A stretch of DNA of 64,000 nucleotides from Desulfitobacterium dehalogenans ATCC 51507. Its GTDB lineage: Bacteria; Bacillota; Desulfitobacteriia; Desulfitobacteriales; Desulfitobacteriaceae. The translations under genes were made by a program, and so were the position numbers. The stretch is taken from assembly GCF_000243155.2 (NCBI RefSeq), contig NC_018017.1, forward strand, positions 2,666,001 through 2,730,000, read 5' to 3'. This document shows, piece by piece, positions 13,263-42,843 of this stretch. The notes beneath the pieces are model-generated. The model did no database searches. It was not told the origin of the DNA and was given only the letters and a program-made list of their open reading frames with translations. Position 1 is the first letter of the stretch; each line of letters starts with the position of its first letter.

Positions 13263-13354
13263 TGATTGTTTCCCCTCTCTTTTATTCTATCTCTACCCAT
13301 AAAAGCTAAGAAATTAATTTTATGACCTCATAATAGTACTCCGAAATGCCATTT

Positions 13355-13430
13355 ACATAACGTACTGGGCATTCACGAAGCGTCCCAACCACATTTATCA
13401 TCCTCTAGTGTCGGCAATTACCTGTTGTCT
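13355..13430 (-). other. attC-like cassette recombination site 1
   Basis: R' side is ACATAAC (13355-13361, plus strand) and R'' side is GTTGTCT (13424-13430). The conserved centre AGCGTCCCAACCACATTTAT is present. Arm pairing is weaker than in other sites. The sequence just outside R'' (TCTACAATGCGGACG) recurs inverted at 13991-14005, the other end of the ACT-domain cassette. Confidence 0.7.
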
Positions 13431-13526
13431 ACAATGCGGACGCCCCAGATAAAGCACAATAGAATACCCCTCCATTAAACCTGTACTTTTCTATTCTTTG
13501 ATTCAAGTACTTAAAGGATATACGTA

Positions 13527-13990: not shown

Positions 13991-14008
13991 CGTCCGCATT
14001 GTAGATAA
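13991..14008 (-). other. Remnant of a cassette end (attC lost)
   Basis: CGTCCGCATTGTAGA is an inverted copy of the bases flanking R'' of site 1, marking the 5' end of the ACT cassette. The arms and centre of the expected attC are missing; the DUF975 stop codon follows 30 bases later, so a deletion probably removed the site. Confidence 0.6.
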
Positions 14009-14036
14009 AGCTAGATTTTCTATTGAATTAACTTGC

Positions 14037-14684
14037 CTAATAAGCATTATCTTTTACGTCTTCATAGAAATTTGCTAAGGTTGCATTATAATAAGGCATC
14101 GCATAGAGAAAACCTATGCCAAGTGTGAAAATCCCAAGTAAAAACCAACCTATAAAGCTTAACCATAGGAAAAATAATCTCTCCTTATGTCCATACATCA
14201 TTTTTTTGCTCAAGTCTATAGCTTCCAATGGCTTAAGATCGGGGTTATCATTCATTATGTAATAGGCCATAGAATATCTTAAAACAGCAATAATCCCTGG
14301 AATTATGAGAAGCAAAAACCAGAGGGTAGTAAAAAGTATAATAAAGAAGTTCATTACAAAATTTTTTAAAAAATAGTGAAAACCGCTAAATAATTCACTA
14401 AATGTAGACTCTTGATCTCTTGCTAATTTCAAAAAGAAAGACGCTAATCCAAAATTTATTGGCCCGCCAATAATGAATGCAATCAAAGAGAACATAGCAT
14501 TTGAGTGATTTACAGTTTTTACAAACTCTCCATTACGCCATACATATTCAACAGTTTCTCTGCCGCTATTTCCTGTGAAAGCATCGGTTAACATCCAGGC
14601 AACAACGGAGACGATAATTGCTATAAGCCATTTCTCTTTTAAATTTTCCCGAGCTAAAGTTTTGAGTTCTGCATTACTTTTCAT
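14037..14684 (-). CDS. DUF975 family integral membrane protein (cassette gene)
   Basis: Protein of 215 residues with the DUF975 pattern: N-terminal ELKTLARENLKEKWLIAIIVSVVAWML, a central GGPINFGLASFFLKLARDQESTFSELFSGF and a long hydrophobic pair (FVMNFFIILFTTLWFLLLIIPGI, RLFFLWLSFIGWFLLGIFTLGIG). Five or six membrane segments are likely. DUF975 proteins have no defined activity; some occur near bacteriocin or stress genes. The start lies behind GGAGGAGATTAA. It is bounded on the 5' side by attC-like site 3; its own 3' attC is lost. Confidence 0.8.
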   Translation of the reverse strand: MKSNAELKTLARENLKEKWLIAIIVSVVAWMLTDAFTGNSGRETVEYVWRNGEFVKTVNHSNAMFSLIAFIIGGPINFGLASFFLKLARDQESTFSELFSGFHYFLKNFVMNFFIILFTTLWFLLLIIPGIIAVLRYSMAYYIMNDNPDLKPLEAIDLSKKMMYGHKERLFFLWLSFIGWFLLGIFTLGIGFLYAMPYYNATLANFYEDVKDNAY

Positions 14685-14795
14685 TTAATCTCCTCCAACC
14701 TTAGTTACTTAACAAATATCATCATCTCAATGCAAAGATATACTGCCCACGCAGAATATTATACCTGTGATTAAATGTTAAATTCGTGCCATATC

Positions 14796-14874
14796 GCATT
14801 ACGTTTTGAGGGTTTGCAACGTCGGGTTATTATCTTTAATGTTCTACCCCAATGTCGCAAACCCTCTGTTATCC
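14796..14874 (-). other. attC-like cassette recombination site 3
   Basis: R' side GCATTAC (14796-14802), R'' side GTTATCC (14868-14874). The arms GAGGGTTTGC and GCAAACCCTC pair perfectly, but the centre differs from the other sites (CGGGTTATTATCTTTAATG), so this is a variant. The GTTATCC end matches GGATAAC of the site at 17202, defining a YciI cassette that now also holds an IS. Confidence 0.7.
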
Positions 14875-14991
14875 AATGCTGTACGCCCCCGAATTCAGAG
14901 GGCGCCATGGACGGCGGCCCCTTGAACCTCCGTGTCTTTTACTACGTAATTTAAGAATGTTGTGAACTAAGGTTATGCCTATGTCCCTTAG
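14875..14991 (-). repeat. Cassette 3'-UTR module with CCATGGACGG palindrome (copy A)
   Basis: Between the YciI stop and attC site 3. It contains GTACGCCCCCGAATTCAGAG, then GCGCCATGGACGGCGGCCCC and TTGAACCTCCGTG. Parts or all of it recur at 17933, 18531, 20293, 21775, 26535 and 29878. The core can form a small stem-loop around ATGGAC. No U-tract follows, so it is not a standard terminator. Confidence 0.65.
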
Positions 14992-15692: not shown

Positions 15693-16976
15693 TTACGCTG
15701 CTGAATACTCAACTGGACGATGAATATCTTGAATCAGCTTTTTCGGGTCATAGTCTATACCCTTTGTTAATAGGGCATAGAACACCCGAATCAGTTTACA
15801 GCTTAAGGCTATTAACGATTGCTTTTTCTTCAGGGGATTCTTGGGCCTGGTCGTATAGTAGGTGTGTATCTCTGCAAACTCTGCGTTTTTGGCGACGAGC
15901 GGCATTACTGCCTGAAATAGAATCGCCCTCAACCGCGCTCGACCTCGCTTACTGATGGTGGTCTGTCCCTTGTGCTTGCCCGAGCTACTTTCTCGCAAGG
16001 CTAGGCCCGCTAGCTTTTGAATTTGCTTTGGAGAATTAAAGCGTCTAATATCTCCAACTTCGGAGAGAAAACCTGCCACGGTAACGAGGCCAACACCTTT
16101 AATTTCAAGCAACTTGGCTACTTCGGGTATCTGACGGCACAACCCATCGATGGTTTCAGTGACTGCCTCATATTGTGCTGTTTTAGTATGATAGTCTTGC
16201 AGTAATAGCTGGATTTCCATTCGGGAACAAGACTCTCCTTCGGTGCAACCAATGCTCTTCTGAGCAGCTTCATACAGGCTCTTAGCCCTTTTCATTCCCA
16301 CTGCTCTCAATTTGTTGTCTCTCCAAATTCGGTTGATTCCTTCTGCTCCAAGTCTTTCAACATCCCTAGGTAGCGGGGCAACTTGCAATACCAGCATGCT
16401 ACTCGTGGCATCAAACTTTCCAAACACCGTTTCATGCTCGGGAAAGTAGATTTTCAGCCACCGTTGAACACGATTTTTTATACTGTTCATTCCCTTTTGG
16501 ATGCGCATCCTGCAGGCCATTGCTATTCGCAGTTCTGCATAGATCCCCTCCGGGATATAGGGCTCATTGTATCTGCCCTCGATGACCAGCTTAGCGATGG
16601 TTTTGGGGTCCTTTGCATCCGTTTTGCTGGGGTGGTTGTCATCAAGCTCCTTACTACGCTTTACATGGAATGGGTTGACGAGGACCAGCTTAATACTTTG
16701 CTCTTTTAGGTAAGATGCCAGGCTAAACCAGTAATGACCGGTTGGTTCTGCGCCTACCACTATGCATTCCTTTTGTGCTTGCCTTTTTAAACGTTCAATC
16801 CATGCATGGAAATCCTTGAATCCTTCAGCGTTGTTTTCAAACTTGAAGACCTTGCCCAGCTCGACTCCTCGCCAGTCAAATGCCCTGGCATAATGAAGCT
16901 CGCTGGCGATGTCCACTCCGATCACAATACTTCTTTCAGATAGTTGCTTTAGCTTCTCGTTTTGTGTAAAATTCAT
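15693..16976 (-). CDS. IS110-family DEDD transposase (IS1111 group)
   Basis: Intact 427-residue transposase. The N-terminal RuvC-like DEDD domain carries VIGVDIASELHY (first Asp), VVGAEPTGHYW (Glu) and SKTDAKDPKTIAKLV (the Asp pair). The C-terminal Transposase_20 domain has LEIKGVGLVTVAGFLSEVGDIRRFNSPKQIQKLAGLALRESSSGKHKGQTTISKRGRARLR with the helix-hairpin-helix-like GVG and the Ser nucleophile region. The start lies behind GGAGGTCATCCCCA. The frame is complete, so the element may still move. Intergenic DNA on both sides belongs to the cassette array. Confidence 0.93.
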   Translation of the reverse strand: MNFTQNEKLKQLSERSIVIGVDIASELHYARAFDWRGVELGKVFKFENNAEGFKDFHAWIERLKRQAQKECIVVGAEPTGHYWFSLASYLKEQSIKLVLVNPFHVKRSKELDDNHPSKTDAKDPKTIAKLVIEGRYNEPYIPEGIYAELRIAMACRMRIQKGMNSIKNRVQRWLKIYFPEHETVFGKFDATSSMLVLQVAPLPRDVERLGAEGINRIWRDNKLRAVGMKRAKSLYEAAQKSIGCTEGESCSRMEIQLLLQDYHTKTAQYEAVTETIDGLCRQIPEVAKLLEIKGVGLVTVAGFLSEVGDIRRFNSPKQIQKLAGLALRESSSGKHKGQTTISKRGRARLRAILFQAVMPLVAKNAEFAEIHTYYTTRPKNPLKKKQSLIALSCKLIRVFYALLTKGIDYDPKKLIQDIHRPVEYSAA

Positions 16977-17159: not shown

Positions 17160-17201
17160 TGTAATCCGCGTATGGGCGCGCAGCTCTTCGCATACGGTTT
17201 C
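17160..17201 (-). repeat. Shared cassette 5'-end block (copy 1)
   Basis: GTAATCCGCG..ATGG..CGCG..GCTCTTCGCATACGG lies directly outside the R' box of site 17202. A second copy, with only a few changes, lies in the same place at 27588-27629. The CGCG-ATGG-CGCG core is a small palindrome. Confidence 0.65.
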
Positions 17202-17277
17202 GGATAACGTGCCCGGTATTACTGTAGCGTCCCAACAACATGCATCATCCTCTAGTTGTGGGAACTCTGTGTTATAC
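17202..17277 (-). other. attC-like cassette recombination site 4
   Basis: R' side GGATAAC (17202-17208), R'' side GTTATAC (17271-17277), with centre AGCGTCCCAACAACATGCATCATCC. Its R'' extension GTTATACGAC matches exactly ten bases (inverted) at the R' side of the next site at 17854-17863, which defines the NUDIX cassette. Confidence 0.8.
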
Positions 17278-17296
17278 GACGGGCGGTTTAGAATCG

Positions 17297-17797
17297 CTAA
17301 ATTATCATCTTACTTCTAAGATACTTCTTTATAGTCGCCACTTGCATTGGGTAAAACTTCTCTGGTTCAATTGTTAACAGTTTGCCAAGTTCGTTGATGG
17401 AAATCCACCTTATATTCTTTGATTCTTCTGATTCATGCAACGGGACACCTTTCACCCGACAAATGAATGCTTGCACAATCAATGGATAATTCCCATCTAT
17501 ACATTGAGAGCTTGCAAATGGAGTATAGTTCACGATTCTTTGCCCGTGTAACTCTAAAACGGTTGACTCGTCTTCTCCAACAATGCTCGTCACTTCTAAT
17601 CCCGTCTCCTCATATATTTCTCTTCGAAGACAATCATAAACATTTTCATATTCTCTTACCCTACCAGCCGGTATTTCTATTAATCCCTCTTCATTGGGTG
17701 CACTTTCTTTACAACGGTTTTGAATTAGTATATAGGATTTTTCATCGATTTCTTTCTCGATTATTCCCGCTACCGCTGGTTTAGCGAAAGCCTCCAT
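17297..17797 (-). CDS. NUDIX hydrolase (cassette gene)
   Basis: Protein of 166 residues; the ATG at 17797 follows GGGGTGAGTTG. The NUDIX box is complete: GRVREYENVYDCLRREIYEETGLEV (pattern G-x5-E-x7-REUxEExGU), near residues 44-68. It hydrolyses a nucleoside diphosphate linked to another group; the substrate is unknown. The ILIQNRCKES and WISINELGKLL parts resemble ADP-ribose or 8-oxo-dGTP-type enzymes but do not decide. The gene fills a 0.59-kb cassette between sites 4 and 5, whose ends match over ten bases, making it one of the cleanest cassettes in the array. Confidence 0.88.
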   Translation of the reverse strand: MEAFAKPAVAGIIEKEIDEKSYILIQNRCKESAPNEEGLIEIPAGRVREYENVYDCLRREIYEETGLEVTSIVGEDESTVLELHGQRIVNYTPFASSQCIDGNYPLIVQAFICRVKGVPLHESEESKNIRWISINELGKLLTIEPEKFYPMQVATIKKYLRSKMII

Positions 17798-17856
17798 CAA
17801 CTCACCCCTTTACTCCCAAAAGCTATCTTGGAACTTTATTAAAATCTTAGCCTGTC

Positions 17857-17932
17857 GTATAACGTTTTCGGCATTCCCGCAGCGTCATATTACATTCTTA
17901 TTTGCTAAGTTACAGGAATGGACGTGTTATAA
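17857..17932 (-). other. attC-like cassette recombination site 5
   Basis: R' side GTATAAC (17857-17863), R'' side GTTATAA (17926-17932). The arms CGGCATTCCCGCAGC and GTTACAGGAATGGACG pair with a few mismatches. The centre is diverged from the other sites (GTCATATTACATTCTTATTT). Confidence 0.78.
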
Positions 17933-18025
17933 GACGTTTCCTGCCCTATGAATTCAGAGCTCGACGTCGCGCCCTAGGTAGTTCCAGCTGTTACACATTA
18001 TAAGAAAAATGCGTCTTATGCTACT
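17933..18025 (-). repeat. Cassette 3'-UTR module (copy H)
   Basis: GACGTTTCCTGCCC, then AATTCAGAG and GGTAGTTCCAGCTGTTACAC. It is closely matched by 20293-20375 beside site 6. It lies between the stop of the 18026 gene and site 5. Confidence 0.6.
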
Positions 18026-18489: not shown

Positions 18490-18546
18490 GGCATTTCCTA
18501 CATGTGCGAACTAAAGCTCTCGTCTGAATCCCGCCATGGACGGCGG
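18490..18546 (-). repeat. Cassette-junction module with CCGCCATGGACGGCGG (copy B)
   Basis: CATTTCCTACATGTGCGAACTAAAGCTCTCGTCTGAATC is followed by the palindrome CCGCCATGGACGGCGG (18531-18546). The left part recurs at 20130 and 21030, and a shorter form at 17123. It lies where an attC would be expected between two cassettes. Confidence 0.6.
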
Positions 18547-20019: not shown

Positions 20020-20217
20020 GCAATATCACTTCCTTTACAACATATATCCGGTAAATCAGTATTTCGTTACACAATAATTCATTTTTTAAAGCTGTCTGCA
20101 TAGGCAAACAGCTTTAAAAGGTTGTATAAATAACTTGATTCACATTATTTTACAAGTATGAAATAAATCTATCGTCTAAATCCCGCCATGGACGGCGAGC
20201 GGTCCTGCAGAAAATGT
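20020..20217 (-). repeat. Gene-free spacer with cassette 5' modules
   Basis: Contains an imperfect hairpin AAAGCTGT..ACAGCTTT (20088-20115), the block TTCACATTATTTTACAAGTATG (about 20130), and the palindrome CCCGCCATGGACGGCG (20182-20197), ending at site 6. These blocks recur at 18490, 21030 and 17123. No gene is seen. Confidence 0.55.
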
Positions 20218-20292
20218 ATATAACGTCCCGAGGAGTCCCGCAGCGTCCCAACCACATTCATCATCCTCTAGTTGCGGGATCCACTGTTATAT
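20218..20292 (-). other. attC-like cassette recombination site 6
   Basis: R' side ATATAAC (20218-20224), R'' side GTTATAT (20286-20292). Arms GAGGAGTCCCGCAGC and GTTGCGGGATCCACT, with the standard centre. R'' with its flank (GTTATATG) matches the R' side of site 7 (CATATAAC), giving a cassette of about 2.9 kb that must once have been two or more. Confidence 0.82.
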
Positions 20293-20536
20293 GACGTTTC
20301 CTGCCCCACAAAGCCTGAGCGCCATGGACGGCACTCCCCCAGGTAGTTCCAGTTGTTGCACTATAAGAAGAATGTGCTATATAGACAGGGCAGACGCCAC
20401 AGAGGGTGTTCCCTACAATCTTATACGCGCATCATTTATAGGGAATAGCCTCCGTGCTGTTCCGCTATAATCCTAATGTTGGACATAATACTACCAACAC
20501 TTATTGTCTAATAAAATGTCATAAGGCTTAAAAGTT
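20293..20536 (-). repeat. Cassette 3'-UTR module (copy I) and spacer
   Basis: GACGTTTCCTGCCCC, GAGCGCCATGGACGGC and GGTAGTTCCAGTTGTTGCAC match copy H at 17933. The remaining spacer to the stop at 20537 shows a hairpin-prone stretch GGGTGTTCCCTACAATC / GGGAATAGCC but no gene. Confidence 0.55.
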
Positions 20537-21029: not shown

Positions 21030-21090
21030 AGTTCACATTTTCCTACAATTACGAAATAAAGCTCTCGTCTAAAGCCCGCCATGGACGGCG
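21030..21090 (-). repeat. Cassette 5' module with CCCGCCATGGACGGCG (copy G)
   Basis: TTCACATTTTCCTACAATTACG, AAAGCTCTCGTCTAAAG and the palindrome CCCGCCATGGACGGCG (21075-21090) lie in the leader of the 20537 gene. They are nearly identical to the blocks at 18490 and 20130. Confidence 0.6.
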
Positions 21091-23054: not shown

Positions 23055-23202
23055 CTAGCATCACCCCGAAATATTAATATTTACGATAAATATCGCTTTA
23101 CAAATTTTTGCCTATCCTTATGTTATAAATATATACAATTACATAAACTGCTAAAATAATCTCCATAACCCACGCATGGATGCGTGGCAATTGTGGTATT
23201 GC

Positions 23203-23278
23203 ATATAACGTCCCGCGAATTGCCGAAGCGTCCCAACCACATCCATCATCCTCTAGTGGCGGGAATGCCGTGTTATGT
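23203..23278 (-). other. attC-like cassette recombination site 7
   Basis: R' side ATATAAC (23203-23209), R'' side GTTATGT (23272-23278). Centre AGCGTCCCAACCACATCCATCATCC. The R'' flank GTTATGTGA matches the R' side of site 8 (TCACATAAC) over nine bases, and GACC/GGTC further out also agree, defining the 23402 cassette. Confidence 0.85.
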
Positions 23279-23401
23279 GATGGACCATGCGCCCAGATTC
23301 AGAGACGACTACGAAAGGGAATCCCTTAAATCGTCCCCCTAGAACAAAATTAATGATTAAATATAACGTTTGCGCAACAATATAAACTTCTTGTGTGATA
23401 T

Positions 23402-23695
23402 TTAAAATCCAGTAGATAGAAGACTATTATCCCAATTCTCAACATTGCTTTCTAATACCTTTGCTTTGATTATTGAATTAGACAAAACAAATTTGTTTAA
23501 CCATTCGACAAATGCTTCCGAACGATAACTACAACCATACTTTTCTCCATTTTTATAAATCCAATATGAATGGTTGTTTTGATTATCATATAGCCAATCT
23601 ATAAATTTATTTCGATATTCTATTAAGTTGTCAGAGATATCCACCGGACAATCAAATATATCTGCATTTACGCAAAATTGGATTACTATTCTCAT
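23402..23695 (-). CDS. Hypothetical protein (single-gene cassette)
   Basis: Not recognised. 97 residues from the ATG at 23695 behind GGGAGAGTGATCTCA; an extension to 23755 lacks a site. The protein is soluble and rich in aromatic and Asn residues: IVIQFCVNADIFDCPVDIS, YRNKFIDWLYDNQNNHSYW, YGCSYRSEAFVEWLNKFVL, VENWDNSLLSTGF. It is the sole gene of a 0.52-kb cassette between sites 7 and 8. Small orphan proteins of this sort are typical cassette cargo. Confidence 0.6.
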   Translation of the reverse strand: MRIVIQFCVNADIFDCPVDISDNLIEYRNKFIDWLYDNQNNHSYWIYKNGEKYGCSYRSEAFVEWLNKFVLSNSIIKAKVLESNVENWDNSLLSTGF

Positions 23696-23794
23696 TGAGA
23701 TCACTCTCCCTTTCAAGTCTATCTCGCAGACTCCTACAAACGTATAATAACCCAAATAATAATTCGCTTTTTCCCAATCCGCTCATGGTCTTTC

Positions 23795-23870
23795 ACATAA
23801 CGTCCCGAGGAGTCCCGCAGCCTCCCAACCACATTCATCATCCTCTAGTTGCGGGACTCCTCTGTTAGGT
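23795..23870 (-). other. attC-like cassette recombination site 8 (best example)
   Basis: R' side ACATAAC (23795-23801), R'' side GTTAGGT (23864-23870). On the minus strand R'' reads ACCTAAC, a perfect RYYYAAC. The arms GAGGAGTCCCGCA and TGCGGGACTCCTC pair without mismatch. The R'' flank GTTAGGTGAAGTAGGC matches the 5' end of the same cassette (inverse of GCCTATTTCACCTAAC at 24592-24607) at 15 of 16 positions. Confidence 0.9.
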
Positions 23871-23882
23871 GAAGTAGGCATC

Positions 23883-24560
23883 TCAAGGCTTTTGTACTTC
23901 CGTAAGAATTTGATTTGAAAGTGTATAATACCTTGGCTCATTCGGCCTTTGATAAATTTCAAATACGTTAGAGTCGTTTCTGTATACTACGACTTGTGCA
24001 TTAACAGATTCGTTTACATCTGAGACCATAATAATATTTCCTATATTTTTATATATCTTCGTGTTTGCTAAAGTCCCCCACGTTGAGACTACTTCTTGTT
24101 CGTTATCCATATCAATATCCTTTTCTAATACATGTCCATCGACTTGAAGTAATACACTTGGCTTAAGATCTTCAATCAAAATATAAATAGCTTGACGGTA
24201 ATTTACTCCAAGGGAACCATTAAACTTAATTACCTTCTTCCCAAACAGATCCTTTACTTCAATTTCATTTCCTATTTGATAAACAGAGATCTGACCCACA
24301 TCATAATATCTATCCTTTATTTTAATGCCCCCATTAAACTCTTCTTGATTTGTTTTTGGTTTATAAAGGAATGCTAAAGCATCATCTGCTAACAGCTCAC
24401 TTGATATTTCGCCAATAGCTTGTTCAGATATTATGGTAATTTCAGATTTCATATCGATTGGCTTAAACTCCAAATTTAATATATGGTCTGTATCTTTCGC
24501 ACATCCATTTACGAGCAATGACACTGAAATTATGGCTATTAGCAACTTAAATAATTTCAT
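23883..24560 (-). CDS. Putative lipoprotein (cassette gene)
   Basis: Protein of 225 residues with a lipoprotein signal peptide (LFKLLIAIISVSLLVNGC, Cys at residue 20). The mature part is mostly beta: EITIISEQAIGEISSELLADDALAFLYKP, QAIYILIEDLKPSVLLQVDGHVLEKDIDMDNEQEVVSTWGTLANTKIY and VYRNDSNVFEIYQRPNE. The IDMDNEQE stretch resembles the DIDGDGE-type loop seen in secreted repeat proteins. The family is not recognised. It is the single gene of the cassette with the best-matched ends in the array (sites 8 and 9). Confidence 0.65.
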   Translation of the reverse strand: MKLFKLLIAIISVSLLVNGCAKDTDHILNLEFKPIDMKSEITIISEQAIGEISSELLADDALAFLYKPKTNQEEFNGGIKIKDRYYDVGQISVYQIGNEIEVKDLFGKKVIKFNGSLGVNYRQAIYILIEDLKPSVLLQVDGHVLEKDIDMDNEQEVVSTWGTLANTKIYKNIGNIIMVSDVNESVNAQVVVYRNDSNVFEIYQRPNEPRYYTLSNQILTEVQKP

Positions 24561-24600
24561 GCTAAATCTTCGTCCTTTTGCAGTATAATCAGCCTATTTC

Positions 24601-24672
24601 ACCTAACGTTCCGCGTATTGCCGACGCGTCCTAACCACATCCATCTTTTCTAAGTGTCGGTAATACGCTGTT
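24601..24672 (-). other. attC-like site 9, interrupted by IS110 element
   Basis: R' side ACCTAAC (24601-24607; GTTAGGT on the minus strand, a perfect GTTRRRY). The arms GCGTATTGCCGAC and GTCGGTAATACGC pair with one mismatch. Only CTGTT of the R'' side is next to the arms; the expected continuation (GTTTATATGATG) is found at 26265, beyond the IS110 element. Confidence 0.85.
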
Positions 24673-24676
24673 CGTA

Positions 24677-24916
24677 TTATAGGTTCATAACCAGTTCAAT
24701 CTGGGTATGGACCTTTTTCTTTTATATTCCCTTATACTGAAAGAAAACTGGGTAAGAACGTATACTCTGTTGGGACCTGGATCCCGTCACATAAACTGTT
24801 TATACTCTCTTTGGCACCAATACTTTGATTGAGCTGGTTGGGCTTTGAGCCCGTATCACAATGCGAACCTAAAGGTGGTTGTTAAAGATGGAACCCGGTG
24901 AAAGAGGAGGTTTTTC
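24677..24916 (+). ncRNA. Candidate bridge RNA region of the IS110 element
   Basis: Non-coding 240 bases between the left end and the transposase start. In IS110-group elements the bridge RNA that selects target and donor is transcribed from this side. Short inverted segments such as GGTTCATAACCAG are visible, but no fold is computed here. Confidence 0.4.
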
Positions 24917-26128
24917 ATGATCGATGTTCCTGTGTTAAGTATTGATATTTCTAAGTCTAAGAGTGTAGCTGCTTTGTTTAAAGGATATCAAGAGTCTGTT
25001 TCCAAACCCTTTCCCTTCTTGCATTCTCCGAGTGATATGTCCAGATTAACTGATATACTTCTTAAACTTGAAAGTGAAACTGGCAAACGCCCTCATGTAG
25101 TTATGGAAGCGACGGGTAATTACTCCAAGCCCATTACAACTTACTTTCAAGATGCAGGTTATAAAGTAATTGTTCTTAATCCTCTCCAAACTCATGCTGA
25201 AAAGAAATCCGTCCGCAAGGTTAAGACTGACCCCATTGATGCGAATCGGATTGCTTAGGTTTGCTATTTGAATGAATTTATTGAAGCCAAACCTGTTGAG
25301 GATCACATCTTGGAATTGCAAAACCTCTGTCGGCAATATGATAGCTTTAATACGCTTTATACTGAAACTCAACTTAGGTTTCGCTCTGTTTTAGATCTTA
25401 TATTTCCTAAGTTTGAATCAGTGTTTGCTCACTTATGTAGTCCTACTGCTTTAAAGGTCCTTTCTACTTTTTCTTCGCCAAAGGCTATTTTATCTGCCAA
25501 CCGTGAGCAGATCATTGAGTGCCTTAAGCCTGCAAAGAAATCAAGAGACTGGAGCGAACTTAAAACAGATAAACTTATTTTGGCTGCCAAGGAAAGTTTG
25601 CCTTTTAACCGGGCCCAACAGTCAAATATACGGGTTTTAAGGATGTACATTGAGCTCCTCATATCCCAACAAGATATTCTGACTGACATACGGGCTCAAA
25701 TGGTCTATTGGGTAAACTTCTCCTCTGAATATCCTCTCCTACGCTCTATCCCCGGAGTCGGAGAGGATACAGCCACCACCATCCTCGCTGAAATTGGTGA
25801 TATTAAAAGATTCCCGAGTGCAAAACAGCTGGTCGCCTTTTCTGGCATTGATCCATCTGTATTTGAATCAGGAAAGTTTAAATCGAGTAATAATAAGATC
25901 TCTAAGAGAGGGTCACCTTATCTTAGAAAGGCCATTTATCAAGCTACTGTGGCTGGGATCAGTAACAGGGCTAGCGGTCCCTTAAATCCAATCCTCAGGG
26001 ACTTTTATCTCCGGAAAGTCAATGAAGGTAAGCCGGTTAAAGTCGCAATTATAGCCACGGCTAACAAAATGCTAAGAATGATCTACGGAATCCTTTCCTC
26101 ACAACAGCCTTTTTCAGCTTCTAAATAA
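24917..26128 (+). pseudogene. IS110 transposase with in-frame TAG at codon 114
   Basis: Open for 113 codons, then TAG at 25256-25258, then open in the same frame to 26128 (403 codons in all). The N-terminal DEDD part shows VLSIDISKSKS, HVVMEATGNYS and KTDPIDANRIA. After the stop the reading continues VCYLNEF, and the C-terminal Transposase_20 domain (LRSIPGVGEDTATTILAEIGDIKRF, then FSGIDPS and SKRGSPYLRK) is intact. The usual residue at the stop in relatives is Gln, so CAG to TAG is the simplest event. The start lies behind GAAAGAGGAGGTTTTTC. Probably a recent nonsense mutation; readthrough is discussed under findings. Confidence 0.85.
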
Positions 26129-26264
26129 CAATTCTCTGTTGACTTAGATATCCCTTTTATTCACATCCCCTTTTTACATGCTTACAACATGTAGGCCAGC
26201 TTTGCTATACCCACTTCTCTTATCAATTACTACAGAAAAACTTTTACTTGACAGCAATTAGCTG

Positions 26265-26275
26265 GTTTATATGAT
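26265..26275 (-). other. Displaced R'' half of attC-like site 9
   Basis: GTTTATATGAT resembles the R'' ends of the other sites (GTTATATGAC). It is the right-hand flank of the IS110 element and continues into GCGGCGCCCCC, like the 3'-UTR modules of other cassettes. Confidence 0.55.
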
Positions 26276-26305
26276 GCGGCGCCCCCAAAGCAATACTTAA
26301 ACAAG

Positions 26306-26530
26306 CTAACCCTTTATAAACCCGTTATCCACCAGCCAGTCAATTGACGGTTTAATATCCGCAGAAAGGGTTTCTATTGTCCAGAGTGCTTTTGGTGAAT
26401 GTACTTTTAACAGCTCTAACGTATTTAACATATCGATTTCACCCTTCCAAAGGCCAAAGTGATCGTCAAGTTTTCCATTGTTATTATGCAGGTGAACGTA
26501 CCTAATCCTGTCATTTAGACCTTGTATCCA
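26306..26530 (-). pseudogene. C-terminal fragment of a sugar phosphate isomerase/epimerase-like TIM barrel
   Basis: The last 70 or so codons encode IRYVHLHNNNGKLDDHFGLWKGEIDMLNTLELL and SPKALWTIETLSADIKPSIDWL. This is the C-terminal part of the xylose isomerase-like/AP endonuclease 2 barrel family, where HLHDN and a Glu near the end bind the metal. The N-terminal 200 residues or so are absent. Upstream of codon HNW the frame runs into a cassette 3'-UTR module (copy C), so the open frame to 26638 is a chimera. The break falls exactly where the R'' box of the neighbouring cassette would start (GGATAC). Confidence 0.75.
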
Positions 26531-26534
26531 ATTG

Positions 26535-26638
26535 TGCCGTACGCCCCCAGATACAGAGCCCGCCATGGACGGCGGCCCCTTGACCCTCCGAATATTAATA
26601 CGCCATATAAGAACGCGCATAAATCTACCCTTTACCAT
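26535..26638 (-). repeat. Cassette 3'-UTR module (copy C)
   Basis: GTACGCCCCCAGATACAGAG, CCGCCATGGACGGCGG (26560-26575), CCCCTTGACCCTCCG and ATTAATACGCCATATAAGAA. It is closely related to copy A. It belongs to the 3' end of the pentapeptide cassette, whose attC arms are missing. Confidence 0.65.
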
Positions 26639-27587: not shown

Positions 27588-27629
27588 TCGTAATCCGCGC
27601 ATGGACGCGCGGCTTTTGCGTACGGTATC
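27588..27629 (-). repeat. Shared cassette 5'-end block (copy 2)
   Basis: GTAATCCGCGCATGGACGCG, GGCTTTTGCGTACGGTATC. It occupies the same position relative to its attC as the block at 17160-17201 and is nearly identical to it. It lies in the leader of the pentapeptide gene. Confidence 0.65.
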
Positions 27630-27705
27630 GGATAACGTTTAGGAGTTCCTGTAGCGTCCCAAGCACATTCATCATCCTCTAAGTTACGGGAACTCTGTGT
27701 TATCT
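27630..27705 (-). other. attC-like cassette recombination site 10
   Basis: R' side GGATAAC (27630-27636), R'' side GTTATCT (27699-27705). Arms AGGAGTTCCTGTAGC and GTTACGGGAACTCTG, standard centre. The R'' flank GTTATCTGAATCGCGG partly matches the inverse of AGCGTTTCGTATAAC at the next site (28263-28277), bounding the VOC cassette. Confidence 0.83.
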
Positions 27706-27748
27706 GAATCGCGGCTAATTAATCATGCAAACTTTGTTTACAATGGAC

Positions 27749-28270: not shown

Positions 28271-28351
28271 GTATAACGTATAATTACCGCAACATCCATG
28301 CGCCTTTTCGTGTTCTCAAGAGGGATTTACGCATAGTATTGCGTAAATCCC
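28271..28351 (-). other. Rearranged attC-like site 11 with separate perfect hairpin
   Basis: R' side GTATAAC (28271-28277) followed by ACCGCAACATCC, but no R'' box at the expected distance. Instead there is a 12-base perfect hairpin GGGATTTACGCA (28322-28333) / TGCGTAAATCCC (28340-28351) with loop TAGTAT. This may be the arms of another attC whose centre was deleted. Confidence 0.45.
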
Positions 28352-42400: not shown

Positions 42401-42461
42401 TGATTTTGTAACAGAAAAGGCTTGCAGAGCGGTCGGCATTCCTCCGAAGGGAGGTGATGCC

Positions 42462-42545
42462 ATGGAAGTATATGAGGCTTTAACACTAATGATCTCTTTT
42501 GGAGCATTAGTTGCTTTTTTGCTTACCTCCGATAAACGGAAATAG
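42462..42545 (+). CDS. Putative holin-like toxin, type I toxin-antitoxin (27 aa)
   Basis: A 27-residue peptide, MEVYEALTLMISFGALVA, then FLLTSDKRK. The EALTLMISFG motif, single helix and basic end match the 'putative holin-like toxin' family (TxpA/BsrG-type) of Firmicutes. Ribosome binding site AGGGAGGTGATGCC. The message would end at the hairpin 42540-42576. These peptides insert in the membrane, and their mRNA is held in check by an overlapping antisense RNA, for which a candidate lies on the opposite strand. Confidence 0.8.
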   Translation: MEVYEALTLMISFGALVAFLLTSDKRK

Positions 42546-42576
42546 ACCGCCTCTGCTCAAGGATGACGGTCTATTT
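42540..42576 (+). terminator. Hairpin at the end of the toxin message
   Basis: AAATAGACCG (42540-42549) / CGGTCTATTT (42567-42576); it overlaps the toxin stop codon. Confidence 0.6.
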
Positions 42577-42843
42577 CCCGATTTCTAAAGCCGACCGCAC
42601 TTCAAGCGGCTGTTACTAGGAGTTATGTTAGCGCATGACTCCTATTTGATTTTAGTATACCACATATTGATCGAAAACATCACTATTGGATGCTATTTTT
42701 CATCACTCGGTGGTGCGGCCTAAAAATGTCTTGATCGGTAATTTCTTCCCTTTTCTCTTTTTCCACAAGCTCTAAAAATTCTTTAGACGGAAGGGGCTGT
42801 TGCAGTAAGACAGCCCCTAATTAACGATTTCAATGTGCTATTC

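Follow-up and report, generated by a model that had tools for sequence, protein, structure and literature searches.

The window, a stretch of 64,000 nucleotides from the genome of Desulfitobacterium dehalogenans (G000:C1:2666001-2730000; G000 is a single contig of 4,321,753 bp), probably carries a variant of the integron-type cassette array, the recombinase of which would work on folded sites with an extended stem. Judged from sequence, the cassettes are units with ends that are complementary over about 18-19 nt, comprising 10 paired positions, a fixed A/C opposition on the top strand (T/G on the bottom strand) and a further 6-8 paired positions, and an attC-type hairpin lies between the ends in the circle that they would form. 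In other genomes, the gene for a HARP-type tyrosine recombinase is directly followed, on its own strand, by predicted cassettes of the same type, with an attI-like repeat element in between. The recombinase is related to the integron integrase IntI, but the integron-specific insert is missing from it and a HARP-like domain is present at its N-terminus. These features suggest an overlooked kind of gene-shuffling system. Genomes are designated G### (G000 is that of the window) and recombinase loci L###.

A covariance model (R1) was built from 15 aligned attC-type sites, nine from the window and six from a second array, and all nine window sites, being part of the training set, match it by construction. 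They lie on the minus strand at 27629-27706 (80.4 bits), 24600-24677 (78.9 bits; the end of an IS110-family element stands in place of its R'' side), 23794-23871 (95.1 bits), 23202-23279 (80.9 bits), 20217-20293 (87 bits), 17856-17933 (69.4 bits), 17201-17278 (76.2 bits), 14795-14875 (55.2 bits; different central part) and 13354-13431 (76.7 bits; the last found in this array). At the head of the array is a predicted attI-like element (28275-28351, minus strand), in which a palindrome (28322-28351) is followed by GTTATACG. It can be aligned with the sequence that separates the recombinase from the first cassette in the main array of G000, in L091, in G033 and in L117. R boxes alone are no evidence for such sites, because a plain search for GTTRRRY returned 79 matches against a chance mean of 107, fewer than expected. 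At E 10, R1 gave 64 matches in G000, of which 52 form the main array at about 853.6-909.6 kb (plus strand) and nine are those of the window; two others are near 3.37 Mb and one is at chance level (E 0.32).

The initial annotation had reported that the two ends of individual cassettes match each other, and reading and tabulating the ends again gave the same matches. The lipoprotein cassette (ORF of 225 aa at 23883-24560, minus strand, no Pfam match at E 0.01) has 19-nt arms at its 5′ end (24589-24607) and 3′ end (23864-23882), both on the minus strand, and these agree at 15 of 16 positions, GTTAGGTGAA A TAGGC against GTTAGGTGAA G TAGGC. The NUDIX cassette (gene at 17297-17800, minus strand, PF00293 with E 2.8e-14; arms 17845-17863 and 17271-17289) matches at 10 of 10 positions (GTTATACGAC), then shows A/G and then GGC, giving 13 of 14. 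The 23402 cassette, with an ORF of 117 aa (23402-23755, minus strand; Pfam matches below threshold only) and arms at 23783-23801 and 23272-23290, matches at 9 of 9 positions (GTTATGTGA) and, after two mismatches, continues with GACCATG, or 16 of 18 overall. The ACT cassette carries TCTACAATGCGGACG at its 3′ end (site 13354-13431) and an inverted copy of it at 13991-14005. Beyond what had been described, the agreement in the lipoprotein, NUDIX and 23402 cassettes restarts after an A/G at position 11 and extends to about position 18-19. At the upstream end of the ACT cassette R1 found no attC-type site, and position 11 is A/A instead of A/G. This 5′ end (13991-14037), which has no preceding site, looks as though the site of the preceding DUF975 cassette was lost and the two cassettes were fused. 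Four of the eight intervals between consecutive window sites span 2.3-3.0 kb, with several ORFs or an insertion; the end match is poor in three of these four and in the 1.36-kb interval from 14795 to 13354.

Across genomes, the pattern was tabulated in 160 intervals between consecutive sites on the same strand, from seven genomes (G000, 60; G009, 35; G033, 25; G030, 16; G003, 12; G006, 6; G028, 6). Both R boxes were present in 150, of which 125 agree at at least five of positions 4-10, and 109 of these are unique. In the unique set, the agreement at positions 4-10 is 0.98, 0.94, 0.88, 0.94, 0.94, 0.98 and 0.74, falls to 0.01 at position 11, and is 0.92, 0.89, 0.92, 0.79, 0.72, 0.64, 0.54 and 0.39 at positions 12-19, compared with 0.51, 0.25, 0.31, 0.32, 0.27, 0.27, 0.37 and 0.31 for non-partners over the same eight positions; at positions 20-25 it is 0.13-0.25. 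Position 11 is an A in the 5′ end and a G in the reversed 3′ end in 107 of the 109 unique pairs, which had been filtered on positions 4-10 only, and in 138 of the 150 intervals without any filter. Mismatches at positions 4-10 favour wobbles on the bottom strand (23 to 7); those at positions 12-19 do not (39 to 54).

Adjacent and non-adjacent ends were compared in 86 cassettes with distinct 5′ words. Over positions 12-19, own partners agree on average at 5.6 of 8 positions and other partners at 2.5, and none of 10000 partner shuffles reached the own-partner value (maximum 3.1). The refuting case named in the initial annotation, in which non-adjacent ends would match as well as adjacent ones, is thus far from what the ends show. 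When each 5′ end was compared with every 3′ end of its genome, no other end scored higher than the own partner in 110 of the 150 intervals, and in 74 the own partner was the sole best; the remaining intervals reflect missed sites or cassettes with common end sequences. Cassette ends in G003 and G033 have the word GTTGTACTAAACCGCTGCGCGG in common. Agreement between the ends on either side of one integrated site does not exceed that of random partners, so the proposal that the matches belong to cassettes, and are specific to each, was right.

Cassettes also recur as whole units. Among the matches listed for the 160 intervals there are 19 similar pairs, and in eight of these, with identities of 85-100%, the alignment takes in both cassettes from end to end. 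Four of the eight are internal to the main array of G000, one to G033 and one to G006; two are between genera. None of the pairs listed involves the cassettes next to the five same-strand copies (the four in G000 and that in G033). The G006 pair lies on opposite strands and may be part of a larger inverted repeat, and is for this reason not counted for movement of single cassettes. In the same genome, the site scores on one strand of G006:C1:696999-703506 (L080 4999-11506) are nearly repeated, as a mirror image, by those on the other, suggesting an inverted duplication of part of an array. If the sites were dispersed repeats or terminators without a role in recombination, their conserved common centre and their folding as hairpins would fit, but this is extremely improbable given that the partner matches are specific to each cassette and that whole-unit copies end at sites.

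The initial annotation had taken matching ends as the known behaviour of integron cassettes. This holds for about the first 10 nt, since classical end pairing reaches 9-11 nt according to the available part of one paper (PMC2727003); the fixed mismatch at position 11, the second paired block and the unusual recombinase go beyond it. The window could still be an ordinary integron array that has no integrase, i.e., a cluster of attC sites with the known R-box pairing of 9-11 nt. The anatomy of the sites is indeed that of attC, with an A after AAC in 162 of 167 and a C before GTT in 161 of 167, and attC clusters are reported in Firmicutes in the accessible portion of PMC9024848. However, in 38 control cassettes taken from 50 kb of a VCR-bearing Vibrio sp. 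replicon, the agreement is 0.87 at position 8, 0.74 at position 9, 0.53 at position 10, 0.45 at position 11 and 0.34 at position 12, reaching background by about position 12-13 and showing no fixed mismatch, which speaks against the signature being present in classical integrons. The A/G signature also has no hits in 79,888 bp of Vibrio replicon, and the linked recombinase has no IntI insert. We regard the ordinary array as distinctly improbable and favour the variant array.

A different account of the outer pairing is that it is a birth mark of cassette making (e.g., copying across a hairpin) that later decays, and not a recognition element. Among homologous cassettes, arm changes were followed in 13 of the 19 pairs (8 of the 13 align at both ends): 29 changes are one-sided with a pair lost or gained, four one-sided and four two-sided changes are unpaired in both, and only two are two-sided with pairing kept. 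Such mostly one-sided change agrees with a decaying birth mark, as does the cassette-specific sequence of the arms, but copying alone does not explain a mismatch at a fixed place inside the paired stem that is kept in distant phyla. This account is possible, although we lean against it, and it can be compatible with a variant integron. Continuous compensatory evolution of the arms is unsupported by the same counts.

The sites were folded with DNA energies (n = 125) as they would occur in the circle and as they occur in the array. Mean energies are -25.5 kcal/mol for the bottom strand of the circle, -21.7 for its top strand and -17.0 for the bottom strand of the array, so that on average the bottom-strand site is 8.5 kcal/mol more stable in the circle than in the array, and the circle 3.8 kcal/mol more stable on the bottom than on the top strand. 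The bottom strand is the more stable in 118 of 125 cases and the circle in 115 of 125. The wobble at position 11 was considered as the sole basis of the strand preference and rejected, as it explains about 0.9 of the 3.8 kcal/mol. These energies lead us to infer that folding is easy for the circle and poor for the array site, and that capture would be favoured over loss. In the mechanism proposed for the variant array, the recombinase would excise cassettes as circles and insert them by acting on one folded attC strand, most likely the bottom one. The HARP-like domain may bind the extended outer stem or help it to anneal, and may in this way partly substitute for the I2 helix of classical IntI. 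The array, unlike the circle, does not have a complete outer stem, and the balance should therefore lie with insertion rather than excision.

Site matches (R1 at E 0.1) occur in 31 of 41 genomes (G000 and 40 relatives). Full-length genes for HARP-type recombinases are found in six of the 31 genomes with site matches and in one (G035) of the ten without; the other 25 site-bearing genomes have no full-length match at E 1e-60. Gene and site thus co-occur only weakly across the 41 genomes, and physical linkage was used instead. A detector based on the end pattern only, with no attC model, required A/G at position 11, together with agreement at six of the seven positions from 4 to 10 and at six of the eight from 12 to 19. 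It was applied to 80 recombinase loci, the best 80 of 562 stretches encoding any relative, with one genome scanned per species. On the recombinase strand, 72 cassettes were detected in the 362,132 bp downstream of the recombinases and none in the 604,130 bp upstream; on the opposite strand there were two, both at L093. At least one cassette was detected at 34 of these best 80 loci, or 34 of the 60 with at least 600 nt downstream, and none at 46 of the 80 (26 of the 60 with room). Between the recombinase and the first cassette is a conserved repeat element ending in GTTA, and in 22 of the 34 loci the first cassette begins 50-130 nt after the recombinase, beyond these attI-like repeats.

With position 11 left free, 72 of 89 detected cassettes have A/G; both pairs of L102 have A/A. 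Block-shuffled copies gave no cassettes when A/G was required and 19 over 160 shuffled strands when it was not. The detector also returned none from both strands of the 79,888 bp of Vibrio DNA, and none from the control stretches (window 36001-64000, L010 and L011).

Among the 34 loci are members of Peptococcaceae, Desulfosporosinus, Paenibacillus, Alkaliphilus and Halanaerobacter, together with metagenome-assembled genomes (MAGs), the labels of which can be wrong, assigned to Bacteroidota, Nitrospirae, Nitrospinae, Atribacteria, Thermotogae, Spirochaetes and Neomarinimicrobiota. Two MAGs are labelled archaeal (Micrarchaeota and Altarchaeum), with the same caveat about labels. Of 299 evenly drawn Bacillota genomes, 22 match the recombinase at E 1e-90, and in 13 of these the N-terminal domain is included (counted as present when the model starts at position 5 or before). 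A Chryseobacterium plasmid carries such a recombinase, annotated as 'site-specific tyrosine recombinase/integron integrase', and has two cassettes at a looser threshold.

It could be argued that the HARP-type recombinase is only a neighbour, and that the arrays are moved in trans by a classical IntI or by relatives without the HARP domain. Such relatives, or fragments of them, do lie in or beside arrays in G003, G038, G005, G006 and G009, and most site-bearing genomes (25 of 31) have no full-length HARP-type match. Against this stand the asymmetry of 72 to 0 between downstream and upstream sequence, the short distance to the first cassette in 22 of 34 loci, and the result for the IntI model (TIGR02249), the cut-off of which (265 bits) no gene exceeds in any of the 41 genomes. 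We consider this explanation unlikely, and take the linked HARP-type enzyme as the candidate recombinase of the variant array.

Nine of the 41 genomes have a TIGR02249 hit at E 1e-30. In four of these (G000, G006, G033 and G038) the hit immediately precedes an array and shares its strand, and in the other five no site on the same contig is among the matches listed. Four of the recombinase proteins, scored whole, reach 206-224 bits against TIGR02249, below its cut-off. The best PDB match is the integron integrase VchIntIA (2a3v), both by sequence and, for an AlphaFold model of the recombinase (mean pLDDT 87, pTM 0.65), by fold. In the alignment, query residues 270 and 285 flank chain residues 183 and 240 of 2a3v, leaving chain residues 184-239, which hold the integron-specific insert, unmatched. 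The KDR and LRH motifs, both located by pattern in 45 of 80 proteins, are spaced 67-70 aa apart in these, compared with 109 in IntI1. The model scores, the alignment with VchIntIA and the motif spacing indicate that the integron-specific additional domain is absent from the array-linked recombinase.

The N-terminal domain was found to be homologous to the HARP domain of known structure (SMARCAL1, 4o66). A profile of 31 N-terminal segments matches 4o66 at E 2.7e-5, and when the first 77 residues were modelled alone (pLDDT 82), the first Foldseek match was the same structure (probability 0.97, E 0.043, TM 0.48-0.54). The Pfam HARP family (PF07443) matches 5 of 10 segments at E 10, ranking first in four of the five, with a best score of 21.6 bits that is below the 25-bit gathering cut-off. 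The domain differs from that of SMARCAL1 in being fused to a recombinase instead of a helicase motor. In SMARCAL1, two HARP domains dictate the annealing activity, and the first was dispensable in later work, as stated in the part available of PMC3409536.

The gene for this recombinase in G000 itself is broken by stops and a frame break, and the arrays of G000 are therefore probably relics, unless an enzyme acts in trans. In a recombinase tree, the HARP-type and HARP-less proteins are separate from two IntI sequences. No ancestry is claimed from it, because support is low (88/31) and the only Xer row is very long-branched; several sequences considered for it had no usable open frame and are absent from it. 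Relatives without the HARP domain, or fragments of them, are encoded on the opposite strand in or next to arrays at G003:C1:727445-728284, G038:C88:55008-55841, G006:C1:709487-710044 and G005:C23:40306-40866; G009 too has such a relative or fragment inside or beside its array.

Chromosomal integrons such as the Vibrio superintegron with its VCR arrays likewise consist of cassettes arranged in tandem and all oriented the same way, with hairpin-forming attC sites, AAC/GTT at the ends of the R boxes and end pairing specific to each cassette; the putative attI-like element ahead of the first cassette would be a further point in common. They differ in that their pairing is unbroken over 9-11 nt instead of extending to about 18-19 nt with a fixed A/C (top strand) at position 11, whereas the recombinase gene of the variant arrays is in the direction of the array and encodes a protein that has no IntI insert and has an extra N-terminal domain. 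The closest NCBIfam model for all four proteins tested is the XerA-type NF040815, 'site-specific tyrosine recombinase/integron integrase' (239.9, 229.6, 219.4 and 209.0 bits; cut-off 220), and from the XerA type they are set apart by the HARP-like domain and the linked cassette arrays. Like IntI they are tyrosine recombinases; the unmatched insert, the score below the cut-off and the added domain separate them from it. The system would accordingly appear to work like an integron while not being one in the strict sense, having the cassette array and the end pairing but not the insert of IntI.

Integron integrases are recognised and defined by the I2 insert, the integron-specific additional domain, in the available text of PMC9668308, and PMC7790495, in the part accessible, describes this insert as necessary for cassette capture and absent from any other protein. 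A cassette system that does without it would, if real, change how integrons are counted and provide a natural test of what single-strand recombination needs. It might also explain why, as the same portion of PMC9668308 reports, attC clusters have a wider distribution when no integrase is detected than when one is. The broader proposal is that Bacteria, and probably Archaea, have a second and widespread integron class, with a recombinase that lacks the I2 insert and carries a HARP-type annealing domain, with a longer attC stem that includes a fixed wobble, and with arrays that make up many of the clusters now regarded as 'integrase-less'. We see the chances of this as evenly balanced; if true, it would be a separate or older solution to the recombination of hairpin DNA. 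The paired-end signature is also a simple, model-free cassette finder, and bears on how cassettes are born. Among the matches listed in a literature search with little coverage of subscription journals and none of bioRxiv, no paper deals with integron recombinases that have no insert, with a HARP domain in such an enzyme or with integrons in Desulfitobacterium, which is not proof of absence.

Several other elements were observed in and around the window array. An IS110-family transposase gene in two open pieces (24678-26290; PF01548 and PF02371; outer limits judged by eye) abuts the R'' box of an attC-type site, and recalls the IS1111-attC elements known from Pseudomonas integrons. A similar stretch (84% identity over 1616 bp) with the same end at an R'' box is found in G009 near 676270. 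A second transposase gene of the family (15693-16976; PF01548 and PF02371) lies between the sites at 17201 and 14795. The stretch 23780-24700 of the window, the only one compared with the plasmid collection, had no match there. At curated thresholds, Rfam gave one match in the window (42408-42641, 60.9 bits), unrelated to the attC-type sites, to BsrG, which is named after a type I toxin-antitoxin system of Bacillus. The word CGCCATGGACGGCG occurs five times in the window (14903-14916, 18532-18545, 20184-20197, 21077-21090 and 26561-26574), near cassette ends and with variants elsewhere, and is possibly a terminator or a common cassette-end element. Finally, a sequence of 269 bp is present at 97% identity in both the window array (about 26267-26535, with the end word TATATGATGCGGCGCC at 26268) and the main array (G000:C1:878523), about 1.8 Mb apart.
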